A DNA stretch of 35,375 bases from a virus, in IMG/VR virus record IMGVR_UViG_3300028597_000048, positions 1 to 35,375 of that record. The stretch is one strand, 5' to 3'. Shown piece after piece: positions 5,385 to 19,443 of the stretch. Under the pieces are notes generated by a model. That model was given only the letters and a program-made list of their open reading frames with translations. It was not told where the DNA came from and searched no databases. How positions within the stretch are numbered: the stretch's first letter is position 1; every line of letters begins with the position of its first letter. The position numbers and the translations under genes were made by a program.

Positions 5385-6418
5385 GAGGTAACCTCGATCG
5401 GCAGACGGGCAATGATGCGGTCCCTTGCCGCGTCTGTGTATGGGAATTCCTTCAGCATGAGCTTCAGGTGCTTCTCCAATCCGGGCTTGAAGCATATGTC
5501 GAGGTACGGGCATGGATCGTAGAAGTCAATCTCCCGTTCGTACTCGGCTTGGCAACTGCACGGCTTGGACTTGATGGCGATCTTCGGATCACGGTTCTTG
5601 AATGCTGCAACGCCAGCCTTGAACTTGCGCTTCTCAGTGCTGATGACCTTGCGCACACGTTCGCGCCAGCGATCATTCCAGAACTCAGCGTGCTCATGGA
5701 ACTCGAAGGGGTTGTCACGGCTCAGGTAAAGGACGCTGAACCCCTTGATGGGCATTTTGTACTTCTTCTCCAGCACGTAGCAGTACGTGGGAATCTGCTT
5801 CAAGTGAGCCTTGTGCGGCAGCTCCGATTTCTTCTTGAGCTTGTTCTTGGTGCAGGTCTTGTAGTCAGCAACCCACCAACCGCCGCCAGCTAGTTTGACG
5901 ATGGCGTCGATGTGGCCTTTGAGGCCGTTGTAGTTGATGCACTTCTCCACGTACTCCATTGGGTGCTTGCACTTGGGGCACTTGTTGTTCGTGGTGTTCT
6001 TGCGAGTCAGGATACCTTTGCGCCAGCATTTACCCTGTTCGTCAAACAGGTCTTGCGCATCGTGGCGCTTCTGGCAGGTTGGGTTTTTGCACTTCCAGTC
6101 ACCCCAGACTTTACCTGTCTGGCCGATGTAATACTGGATGTTCTCGTGCGCTGCTGTACCGACAGAGGTGAAGTAACCCCCGGATGCGGTCATGCGACCA
6201 CGAAAGAATCCGAGGTGAGCACCTGCGGCGAAGCGCATCAAGTGATGAATTGGGCAGCCTGGAAACGACGATGGCCGATACTCTGGACCGCGACCGTAGT
6301 CGGTCACAATCTCCGTATCCATGGTCTTCTCGTACATTTCACCGAACAGTGAGGCCTTCACGACACTGGGTCTAGCTATCCCGCTCCAGAGAGTCTTGGG
6401 GCTGATCGAGGAAAACAT
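5381..6418 (-). CDS. Cas4/RecB-like PD-(D/E)XK nuclease with inserted zinc ribbon
   Basis: A 345-residue nuclease. The PD-(D/E)XK core is visible as H91, GHIDAIV (D171) and VADYKT (D185, K187), with the QxxxY element Q208-Y212 typical of the RecB/Cas4/AddB group. One Cys near the N-terminus (C55) and a C-terminal set (C287, C289, C303, C309) match the iron-sulphur cluster arrangement of Cas4 and AddB. Between H91 and D171 sits a zinc-ribbon-like insert with C110, C115, C147 and C150. It leads the minus-strand unit down to 3385, with an AAGGATAG ribosome site before the ATG. Family knowledge suggests 5' or 3' end resection in recombination-dependent replication. No cas1 or cas2 gene and no CRISPR array is present here. 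Confidence 0.82.
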   Translation of the reverse strand: MFSSISPKTLWSGIARPSVVKASLFGEMYEKTMDTEIVTDYGRGPEYRPSSFPGCPIHHLMRFAAGAHLGFFRGRMTASGGYFTSVGTAAHENIQYYIGQTGKVWGDWKCKNPTCQKRHDAQDLFDEQGKCWRKGILTRKNTTNNKCPKCKHPMEYVEKCINYNGLKGHIDAIVKLAGGGWWVADYKTCTKNKLKKKSELPHKAHLKQIPTYCYVLEKKYKMPIKGFSVLYLSRDNPFEFHEHAEFWNDRWRERVRKVISTEKRKFKAGVAAFKNRDPKIAIKSKPCSCQAEYEREIDFYDPCPYLDICFKPGLEKHLKLMLKEFPYTDAARDRIIARLPIEVTS

Positions 6419-16020: not shown

Positions 16021-17160
16021 GGACACACCTTGCTGATCTTCATTTTGAGCCTGTGCAGCGTCAGGCTCCAGACAGTGCAACACCCGCCGGAATCGGGTGA
16101 AGCGCTGCAACCACAAACAGAACCATCGCCTGCCGGAAGTCAGGCTGCGCGATGTAGATAGGGATGGGTACCTGATCCGGCCAGCGATCCCATCCCGCAC
16201 AAACCACAAAGGCGCCGCCATTGGCTGCGGTTGCTGAATCGAGGAGAGGCTTGCACGAAGCCAGATGTACGGTGCAGGCCAATCTCGAAATGCTAATTCA
16301 TTACTCGCACTGATGAACGGTTCAAGTCCGTGTATGGGTGAAAGGCCCACGAAACTCTACGGAGTCTGCGACAGCCAACGGCCTGATAAGCTGTGCGGCT
16401 GAGTTCAGCGGTCAAAGGGGCGATTTCCCGGACCGTCACCACGGAATCTCCTGCTGTGGTTAATGGATGAATTGCGGAGCATAGGCCGCGTGAGTCTTGC
16501 GTTGGCGTGCCGTTGCGTTTGTCTCTGCGCAATGTACAAGGGACTAGAGTGATCGCTTATCAAGCGCACGGTTGCCTTCTGTATTACTGGATGCGGTGTT
16601 GGGCCTCTAACCCAGGAATCAGTTGCTCGCTCGGCTTCTTCGGAAGTCGCAACCACTCCCACCTAGAAGTGTAAAGGAAAGAAAGCCAACACAACGCAGC
16701 TTCGAGCCAGCCAGATCAAGCCCTTCAGCTTTGGGTAGTGACAGCAGGAATTCCGCCGCGACATTAGCATAAGCCTTCCATCTTCTAGGTGGGTTTCATT
16801 TTTCGCCTCAGGCTCGACTCCTTACTGAGAATTTAAGAGACGTTACAGGATCGCCCGCTGCGCGCAGGATAGAGAACAGATGCTACGGTCGAACGACCGG
16901 GCTACCCAATTTCAACTCCTGGCACATGGTGAACTCTAATCTCCTTCTGGTTCTGACGCGGTAACGAGTCTGAGGCACCTAATCATTCGTCTGGTACCTA
17001 CGCGGAGCCGATGGAATGCAGCACGTCAGATAGAGCGTTTGGGAATACGGCACCCGAGCTGTTCGATAAGGTAATGCCACGCTGCTTGGTACGCACACTG
17101 GTCCACGTTGCCCGCCCCAGCAACGAGTACGTGCGGTAAGTTTACCTGCTGGCACCAATT
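16021..17160 (+). ncRNA. Candidate large structured non-coding RNA region beside the tRNA cluster
   Basis: No credible gene occupies this 1.1 kb, but inverted repeats are dense. They include GAGCCTG/CAGGCTC (16047-16068), CACCCG/CGGGTG (16081-16099), GGGATGGG/CCCATCCC (16161-16196), ACGG/CCGT around TTCAAGT (16317-16331), GTTGC..GGCTTC-TTCG-GAAGTC..GCAAC (16622-16653) with a cUUCGg tetraloop, and a perfect 12-bp long-range stem CCCACCTAGAAG (16658-16669) / CTTCTAGGTGGG (16782-16793) followed by TTTCATTTTT. The TGCTAATTCATT motif at 16291 could start a transcript of about 500 bases ending near 16806. Position next to phage tRNAs is typical of the giant RNAs GOLLD and ROOL; I cannot assign a family by eye. 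Confidence 0.45.
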
Positions 17161-17168
17161 CTGTAAAG
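17161..17168 (+). promoter_or_regulatory. CTGTAAAG motif, putative promoter for the tRNA-cluster transcript
   Basis: CTGTAAAG lies 41 bases before the small membrane-protein gene and the tRNA cluster. It overlaps a hairpin arm, AAAGCAGA (17165-17172), that pairs with TCTGCTTT (17183-17190). Confidence 0.4.
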
Positions 17169-17201
17169 CAGAGTCACACAATTCTGCTTTTGGTAATATA
17201 C

Positions 17202-17408
17202 ATGCTCAAGCGAATCTTCAAGCCATTCTGCGAAACGCGGTACGATGCGTGTGTTTGGACTGCCTACGTGCTTGTCGGTGCTGCGCTGTATTTCACCAAC
17301 ACACTTGTGAAGTACGGACACGTCGCACCCATCGGACTCAGCATCGCCCTTATGTTGCCGAGCGCGAAATTGCAGATAGCTAATTTGTTGAGCAAGCTAC
17401 GATCATAG
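17202..17408 (+). CDS. Small membrane protein at head of tRNA cluster
   Basis: A 68-residue protein with a hydrophobic segment at about 15-33 (ACVWTAYVLVGAALYFT) and a second at about 42-55, so probably two membrane passes with a basic N-terminus. ATG at 17202; a TTG at 17190 is in frame, but neither has a clear ribosome site. The TAG stop shares its last base with the first base of the tRNA-Asp gene, suggesting co-transcription and processing. Family not recognised. Confidence 0.62.
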   Translation: MLKRIFKPFCETRYDACVWTAYVLVGAALYFTNTLVKYGHVAPIGLSIALMLPSAKLQIANLLSKLRS

Positions 17409-17484
17409 ACCCGGTAGTTCAGTCGGTTAGAATGCTGGCCTGTCACGCCAGAGGTCACGGGTTCGAGTCCCGTCCGGGTCGCCA
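17408..17484 (+). tRNA. tRNA-Asp (GTC), copy 1
   Basis: A full cloverleaf: acceptor GACCCGG/CCGGGTC, D-arm GTTC/GAAT, anticodon stem CTGGC/GCCAG with loop CTGTCAC (anticodon GTC), and T-arm ACGGG/CCCGT with TTCGAGT. G discriminator and encoded CCA. Confidence 0.97.
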
Positions 17485-17489
17485 CTTTC

Positions 17490-17566
17490 GGCTCCATAGT
17501 TCAGTCGGTTAGAATGCTGGCCTGTCACGCCAGAGGTCACGGGTTCGAGTCCCGTTGGAGTCGCCA
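17490..17566 (+). tRNA. tRNA-Asp (GTC), copy 2 with different acceptor stem
   Basis: Acceptor GGCTCCA/TGGAGTC (one G-U pair), anticodon GTC, encoded CCA. From the base after the 5' acceptor strand to the end of the T-arm (59 bases) it is identical to copy 1; only the acceptor stem differs. Confidence 0.96.
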
Positions 17567-17583: not shown

Positions 17584-17799
17584 ATGCAAATTTTTGTGAA
17601 TGCAAAGCCGCATGAGTTTGTCTGCCGCACCATCAGCTACGAAGAAGCCGTCAAACTTGACGGTCGAGACCCGAGCGTGGTGTACACAGTGACCTGGTCA
17701 GTTAAAGGTTACGGCGGCGGTGTCCTCACACCTCGAGGCAGTCCTGTCGAGGTGAAAGAAAACATGCAGGTGTTTGTCGCGTATACCGGCAATGCCTGA
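17584..17799 (+). CDS. Ubiquitin-like protein of the multiubiquitin family
   Basis: A 71-residue protein matching, over its whole length, one repeat of the bacterial multiubiquitin domain: a starting strand IFVNAKPHEF, the signature ISYEEAVKL (18-26), then VVYTVTWS (32-39), a Gly-rich turn, VEVKENMQVFV (55-65) and T near the end. In bacteria this beta-grasp family is usually found as tandem repeats with E1/E2/JAB-type conjugation genes, some of which are anti-phage. Here it is a single stand-alone domain ending GNA, without a terminal Gly-Gly. It sits between tRNA genes, a common place for accessory phage genes. It might be a decoy for host conjugation-type defence; that is inference. ATG at 17584 with only a weak GAGAG upstream. 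Confidence 0.75.
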   Translation: MQIFVNAKPHEFVCRTISYEEAVKLDGRDPSVVYTVTWSVKGYGGGVLTPRGSPVEVKENMQVFVAYTGNA

Positions 17800-17974: not shown

Positions 17975-18050
17975 TCCCGCTTAGCTCAGTCGGTAGAGCA
18001 CACGGCTGTTAACCGTGGCGTCCCTGGTTCGAGTCCAGGAGCGGGAGCCA
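17975..18050 (+). tRNA. tRNA-Asn (GTT)
   Basis: Acceptor TCCCGCT/AGCGGGA, D-arm GCTC/GAGC, anticodon stem CACGG/CCGTG with loop CTGTTAA (GTT), T-arm CCTGG/CCAGG with TTCGAGT, and encoded CCA. The 175 bases before it hold no gene; they contain a near-complementary pair (about 17803 and 17890) but nothing I can name. Confidence 0.97.
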
Positions 18051-18051
18051 C

Positions 18052-18128
18052 AGGATGTTAGCTCAGTTGGTTAGAGCAGCGGCCTTTTAAGCCGTTGGTC
18101 CTGGGTTCGAGTCCCAGACGTCCTACCA
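18052..18128 (+). tRNA. tRNA-Lys (TTT)
   Basis: Acceptor AGGATGT/ACGTCCT, D-arm GCTC/GAGC, anticodon stem GCGGC/GCCGT with loop CTTTTAA (TTT), T-arm CTGGG/CCCAG with TTCGAGT, and encoded CCA. One base separates it from the tRNA-Asn gene. Confidence 0.97.
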
Positions 18129-19005: not shown

Positions 19006-19443
19006 ATGGCATCAGGTGTATTCTCCCACTTTGACACACGCGAGCTCCAACGGCGGCTGTATCAAATGCTCGCCGTGTTCACCTATCAGGACTCTGTGTT
19101 CGGCAAGATCGAGGTAGATAAAGGCTTCCAGACCAACTACGCCTCGATTGACGTGCTGCACAACATCTGGCTGTTCGTGTTCTACGCCCTGCTCGCCAAC
19201 TACGGTGACAAAGCAGCCACGATTCACGACTGGTTGTACTCAGGCTACGGCATTCGCCAAGCGGACGGGTCGATCTACTACCCGAACCGTAAGGAGTGTG
19301 ACCAAGTCCTGTACCGTGCGTTGCGGGCAGAAGGCGTAGCTCGCTGGCGTGCTTGGATGTTCTACGCTGGTGTGCGCATCGGCGGGCGCAAAGCCTACAC
19401 TGCCTCGCCAACCGAAGTACCAGTGTTTAGCATCGCCGCATGA
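19006..19443 (+). CDS. DUF1353 family protein
   Basis: A 145-residue protein matching the phage-associated DUF1353 family: VDKGFQTNYASIDVL (38-52), the characteristic AATIHDWLYSGYG (71-83), then RKECDQVLYRALRAEGVARW followed by a hydrophobic helix and GVRIGGRKAY. The family is common in tailed phages; its biochemical role is not established, though the conserved His-Asp and the acidic position suggest hydrolase-like chemistry. AAGG lies eight bases before the ATG. It is a single-gene unit between two UUCG-loop terminators. Confidence 0.78.
   Translation: MASGVFSHFDTRELQRRLYQMLAVFTYQDSVFGKIEVDKGFQTNYASIDVLHNIWLFVFYALLANYGDKAATIHDWLYSGYGIRQADGSIYYPNRKECDQVLYRALRAEGVARWRAWMFYAGVRIGGRKAYTASPTEVPVFSIAA

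Follow-up and report, generated by a model that had tools for sequence, protein, structure and literature searches.

Bub operons are widespread. An operon of this type encodes a multi-ubiquitin-like protein (Ubl), a DUF6791-ThiF protein, which resembles a fusion of E2 and E1 enzymes, and a DUF6527 protein. Bub operons have been described with CapP- or CapW-type regulators and are regarded as putative immune pathways; protection against phage has not been demonstrated for them (PMC13373217). The cellular relatives of the phage protein described here are found in such operons. We gathered 80 relatives from 84,980 species genomes, 79 of them intact. A DUF6791-ThiF gene directly adjoins every intact relative (79/79), DUF6527 is also present at 76 of these 79 loci, and in 72 loci the Ubl and DUF6791-ThiF genes overlap by exactly 26 nt. 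Regulators of the ImmA/IrrE (CapP-like) or WYL (CapW-like) kind occur at 33 of the 80 cellular loci, which on this account look defence-like. We have named the operons Bub, judging from structures and from the regulators. The sequence-only reading of the phage gene had looked to Bil- or CBASS-type conjugation as the relevant machinery; the neighbors of its relatives, the DUF6791-ThiF E2-E1 fusion and DUF6527, point to Bub-type machinery instead. That reading had also stressed the single domain, which is not special, as single-domain proteins of 80-100 aa are common among the cellular members. In even draws of whole genomes, the family (PF14452) was present in 11/390, 15/398, and 13/296 genomes, or about 3-4%.

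The phage gene lies in a 35,375-nt stretch of viral DNA (IMG/VR record IMGVR_UViG_3300028597_000048, positions 1 to 35,375), hereafter the window. Much of the window is syntenic with the genome of PaBG, a jumbo phage of Pseudomonas, and the nucleotide identity there is roughly 64-75%. The source is a PaBG-like jumbo phage. The ORF encodes the protein MQIFVNAKPHEFVCRTISYEEAVKLDGRDPSVVYTVTWSVKGYGGGVLTPRGSPVEVKENMQVFVAYTGNA, and its coordinates, its length and its place in the phage tRNA cluster proved to be exactly as first read (Table 1). It lies between tRNA-Asp and tRNA-Asn. On its 3' side the order is tRNA-Asn, tRNA-Lys and then another tRNA-Asn. The spacing on its 5' side suggests that the ORF is co-transcribed with the second tRNA-Asp. 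The gene is found at 99-100% identity on two IMG/VR contigs. A 114-kb IMG/VR contig (L001/G001) is ~99% identical to the whole window, minus one tRNA-Asp copy. PaBG itself (258 kb, complete) has the tRNA cluster, and a PF14452 protein was found nowhere in it. The Ubl gene is thus accessory cargo of the window's lineage, either gained here or lost in PaBG.

Table 1. Features of the Ubl gene and the surrounding tRNA cluster, in window coordinates.
Feature	Position	Strand	Remarks
tRNA-Asp(gtc), first tandem copy	17408..17484	+	missing from L001
tRNA-Asp(gtc), second copy	17490..17566	+	17 nt upstream of the Ubl ORF
Ubl ORF, 71 aa	17584..17799	+	ATG start, 71 codons, TGA stop; single Bub/multi-ubiquitin-type beta-grasp domain
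C-terminal tail codons T68-G69-N70-A71	17785..17796	+	as long, in alignments, as the T-x-x-S tail of cellular members, with the terminal Ser replaced by Ala
tRNA-Asn(gtt)	17975..18050	+	downstream of the Ubl ORF
tRNA-Lys(ttt)	18052..18128	+	part of the cluster collinear with PaBG

The make-up of the tRNA cluster varies. The tandem duplication of tRNA-Asp(gtc) at 17408-17566 is present as two copies in the window and in L002 and as one copy in L001, and L002 has ~180 nt more than the window between tRNA-Asn and tRNA-Lys (L002:4256-4437). Window positions 16021-17189 form a 1.2-kb stretch with no convincing genes and no Rfam match, which may be structured, may be regulatory or may have been exchanged recently; it differs from L002 by only 8 substitutions, a per-base rate below that of the flanking coding genes. 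A DUF1353 protein (58.5 bits) is encoded just downstream of the cluster, at 19006-19443.

PF14452 (Multi_ubiq) is the sole ubiquitin-like family above noise for the phage protein, and the alignment to it covers the full length (residues 2-66 against profile positions 2-66 of 69). The score, 19.8 bits (E=9.5e-4), is below the curated gathering cut-off of 24.5, an outcome that the sequence-only reading had itself named as counting against the assignment. A better family profile removes this doubt: on the profile built from 79 bacterial relatives the phage protein scores 36.1 bits, and the best of 20,000 shuffles of its own sequence scores 12.3. When 72,556 plasmids were searched by tblastn, most of the best matches bore the annotation 'multiubiquitin domain-containing protein' and lay beside ThiF, with 30-42% identity; identity to single bacterial members reaches 46%. 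This evidence makes the homology firm in spite of the sub-threshold PF14452 score. Within the family, a profile of the subfamily whose members end in T-x-x-S gives 36-73 bits with the window protein and the domains of two other phages (see below), and the profile of the other PF14452 branch gives 3-7 bits (only ~3 for the window protein). We are nearly certain, as far as identity alone is concerned, that the phage protein is a true relative of the bacterial multi-ubiquitin (Bub-type) Ubls and belongs to the T-x-x-S subfamily. A chance ORF is ruled out by the profile scores, the shuffles and the relatives. Photolyase matches (NCBIfam, PDB) were weak and local only and were discarded, and comparison with PHROGs and PADLOC gave no match.

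Given the family alignment, AlphaFold2 predicts a beta-grasp topology (pLDDT 91.4). The single-sequence model is not confident (pLDDT 52), so the predicted fold comes through the family. The nearest PDB structure is the multi-ubiquitin 9cd2_A (Z 10.8 over 69 residues), followed by 8u38, 9d5b, 9d5a, 9d59 and 9ea8 (BubA domain) with Z of 8.2-9.3; ordinary ubiquitins, at about Z 6.5, fall below all the solved multi-ubiquitin and BubA domains. The protein is therefore confidently modeled as a beta-grasp closest to the solved multi-ubiquitin domains. A structure search among viral models gave no confident match. The original description of the protein, as a multi-ubiquitin-family domain that a phage carries on its own, was right.

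The same domain is found in two other phage lineages: in a 124-aa protein of a phage contig (L017/L018) that carries a terminase and a RecE-type exonuclease, and in a 148-aa protein of the 595-kb huge phage LR756511. In both, it forms the C-terminal part of the longer protein. Both relatives pass the PF14452 cut-off (47.9 and 24.6 bits), and the one with 47.9 bits is 43% identical to the window protein over the domain. No match was found by tblastn of the window protein against 50,697 phage records; the LR756511 relative was reached solely with the L017 protein as query. Wider viral scans showed no viral lineage beyond the three, and 10 of the 12 loci from a viral pattern scan were unrelated by profile. 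The N-terminal extension of the huge-phage Ubl has a CxxC and a further Cys (L125:5767-5985), and may be a zinc ribbon. In L017 the sequence accaactaacaataagattATGGA occurs twice (5815-5836 and 6213-6235), each time ahead of a small gene; the two genes are consecutive and one of them is the phage Ubl gene. It is perhaps a common translation or promoter signal.

The conjugation machinery does not accompany the domain. None of ThiF, DUF6791 and DUF6527 was found in the window, in the relatives of 114 and 103 kb, in PaBG or on the L017/L018 contigs; for the window's phage the E1 search covered the relatives, which together make up roughly half of a PaBG-size genome. The operon context of the cellular members, an adjacent DUF6791-ThiF gene plus DUF6527, is thus missing around the phage gene. 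In LR756511.1, a Prok-JAB (PF14464) gene and a ThiF-family E1-like gene lie close together (L188:1414-3339, about 280 kb), ~209 kb from the Ubl gene. This pair could be taken to mean that the phage Ubl has an E1-like partner whose gene lies at another place in the phage genome. Such phage-encoded conjugation is highly improbable, since ThiF is missing from the 114- and 103-kb relatives as well as from the complete PaBG, and DUF6791 was not found in LR756511.

The C-terminal tail separates the phage proteins from the cellular ones. All 79 intact cellular Ubls end in T-x-x-S and none in Gly-Gly (the tail counts exclude L066, whose reading frame is broken in the tail, and L151, whose ORF is truncated). 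In an independent, profile-based draw of whole genomes, 18/18 complete members end in Ser (two overlap the first set); eight plasmid members also end in T-x-x-S, and PDB 9cd2 ends in T-D-K-S. The window protein ends in T-G-N-A: the Thr and the tail length are kept and the terminal Ser is lost. The lack of Gly-Gly, on which the sequence-only reading had dwelt, is true of the phage protein, which ends in Asn-Ala, but it is uninformative, and loss of Gly-Gly was dropped as the key feature because the whole family is without it. The informative feature of the tail is the change of the terminal Ser to Ala, which is common to all three phage lineages found (TGNA in the window, TNNA in L017/L018, TGDA in LR756511). 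In the alignment, the last column is Ser in 52/52 cellular rows and Ala in 3/3 phages. Most columns with at least 80% conservation among the 52 cellular rows are retained in the three phage domains, and the last is the sole one of them with a common foreign residue in all three. The position of the stop codon is identical in the three phages, indicating that a free tail is maintained. With kinship ignored, the probability of Ala in 3/3 phage and 0/97 cellular members is ~6e-6. In the best gene tree the three phage domains stand apart, which requires three Ser-to-Ala changes; a single phage clade is not rejected (p-AU 0.157), and the change may have been one ancestral event.

In cells, the terminal Ser is probably under selection. 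In the 72 overlapping loci Ser is constant, whereas the E1 residue encoded beneath it can be His (51), Arg (16) or Leu (5), and six loci without gene overlap also retain Ser. This argument is limited in that mutating T to G in the Ser codon would change the overlapping E1 residue too, and the overlap somewhat constrains the first base of the codon. Given the missing operon context and the missing terminal Ser, we file the window protein as a phage-borne variant of a Bub-type Ubl and not as a functional Bub component.

Absence of machinery, retention of the core and of the exact tail length, and a changed last residue are best read together as marks of a substrate mimic for a foreign E2-E1. The phage would have captured the Ubl of a Bub-type operon without its machinery. 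The beta-grasp face and the T-x-x tail would dock in the host E2-E1 fusion, and the Ala in place of a near-invariant Ser would give a poor, dead-end or irremovable conjugate. By competing with the host Ubl, the phage Ubl would blunt the pathway during infection. The simplest outcome would be that it engages the host's Bub enzymes competitively or in a dead end. We put the chance that the protein is such a captured, C-terminally altered Bub Ubl mimic, engaging and jamming (inhibiting) the host E2-E1, at just short of even, mechanism included. The decoy or inhibitor role first proposed is thus retained as the best-fitting reading and is sharpened to one residue; we infer its mechanism, namely host E1-E2 binding, inhibition and a benefit to the phage. 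Several points count against a decoy: no more than about 3-4% of the sampled genomes have the family, Ser-to-Ala is possibly a single ancestral event, a distant E1 is possible, given the part of the genome covered, and a terminal Ala alone does not block ubiquitin-like conjugation, as CBASS shows (PMC10097602). There may also be nothing for the phage to counter, since phage protection is not demonstrated for Bub operons.

The main rival to jamming is that the phage Ubl is conjugatable but irremovable. The host Bub E1-E2 would activate it and attach it to chosen targets, and the Ala end would block a putative processing or removal by DUF6527, which is present at nearly all the cellular loci (76/79). 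The core and the tail length are kept as would be expected of a live substrate, and the phage protein could be an active tag because cGAS in CBASS is conjugated through a C-terminal Gly or Ala (PMC10097602). However, the Ser that all the cellular substrates keep is gone in all three phages, and we consider a hijacked tag unlikely. Filament formation offers another target, as the structure titles of two solved relatives, 9d59 and 9d5b, speak of filaments of multi-ubiquitin proteins: a single domain might co-assemble with and cap the host filaments, making the C-terminus irrelevant. Such poisoning of oligomers is very unlikely: it leaves unexplained the kept T-x-x tail, the stop position and the common Ser-to-Ala change in three phages, and the closest subfamily has many single-domain proteins. 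A captured Ubl may also have taken up a role outside conjugation, for example in phage protein assembly or sulfur carriage. Consistent with this, E1 and E2 are absent from the available genome of the window's phage, and the domain ends longer proteins in the two other phages. Retention of the tail length, the Thr and the core motif in three divergent lineages would not be expected of a repurposed domain, and sulfur carriers of the ThiS/MoaD type require Gly-Gly; repurposing, too, is improbable.

The occurrence of the same change in two unrelated phages suggests that phages produce modified versions of the tag in order to disturb, or make use of, the tagging machinery of their hosts. Somewhat less likely than not is the wider proposal that a Ser-to-Ala Bub Ubl was captured by, or evolved in, unrelated phages, from jumbo size up to 595 kb, as a counter-defence decoy, a mimic of ubiquitin. 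If true, this would be counter-defence by ubiquitin mimicry, directed at a bacterial pathway that resembles ubiquitination, and an anti-phage action of Bub operons would be implied. Phages with an altered Bub tag would independently point to the importance of the pathway in infection and provide a ready reagent for testing it, and the common Ser-to-Ala change makes a precise biochemical prediction about the role of the last residue of the tag. In the searchable literature, which did not extend to the primary Bub reports, no description of phage-borne Bub-type Ubls was found, and ThiF, JAB and phage ubiquitin-like proteins go unmentioned in a survey from 2021 that covered 224 jumbo phages.

Among known systems, CBASS cGAS/Cap2 resembles the present case as a bacterial ubiquitin-like conjugation in which a C-terminal Ala is usable as well as Gly (PMC10097602). 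However, cGAS is an enzyme and not a stand-alone beta-grasp tag, and Cap2 is a different E1-E2. The Bil system (bacterial ISG15-like) likewise uses ubiquitin-like tagging in anti-phage defence (PMC12948488); the phage protein would be set apart from it by its profile matches, to PF14452 as the only ubiquitin-like family above noise and to no PADLOC family. Vs.4 of phage T4 is also a small phage accessory protein that blunts bacterial immunity, but the analogy is functional only, as Vs.4 sequesters cGAMP and does not mimic a host tag (PMC10097602). ThiS, MoaD and ubiquitin share the general fold at a lower structural score (Z about 6.2-6.7) and, unlike the phage protein, have Gly-Gly ends; they show no specific sequence match to it. 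The closest system remains the Bub/multi-ubiquitin Ubl (PF14452; 9cd2, 8u38, 9d59/9d5b, 9ea8). From it the phage protein differs in being phage-borne, in having no partner genes nearby, in its Ala for the terminal Ser and in its sub-cut-off PF14452 score. With it the phage protein shares the fold, the subfamily, the tail length and the invariant Thr, and the C-terminal domain of the cellular Ubl aligns with the phage protein to the last residue.
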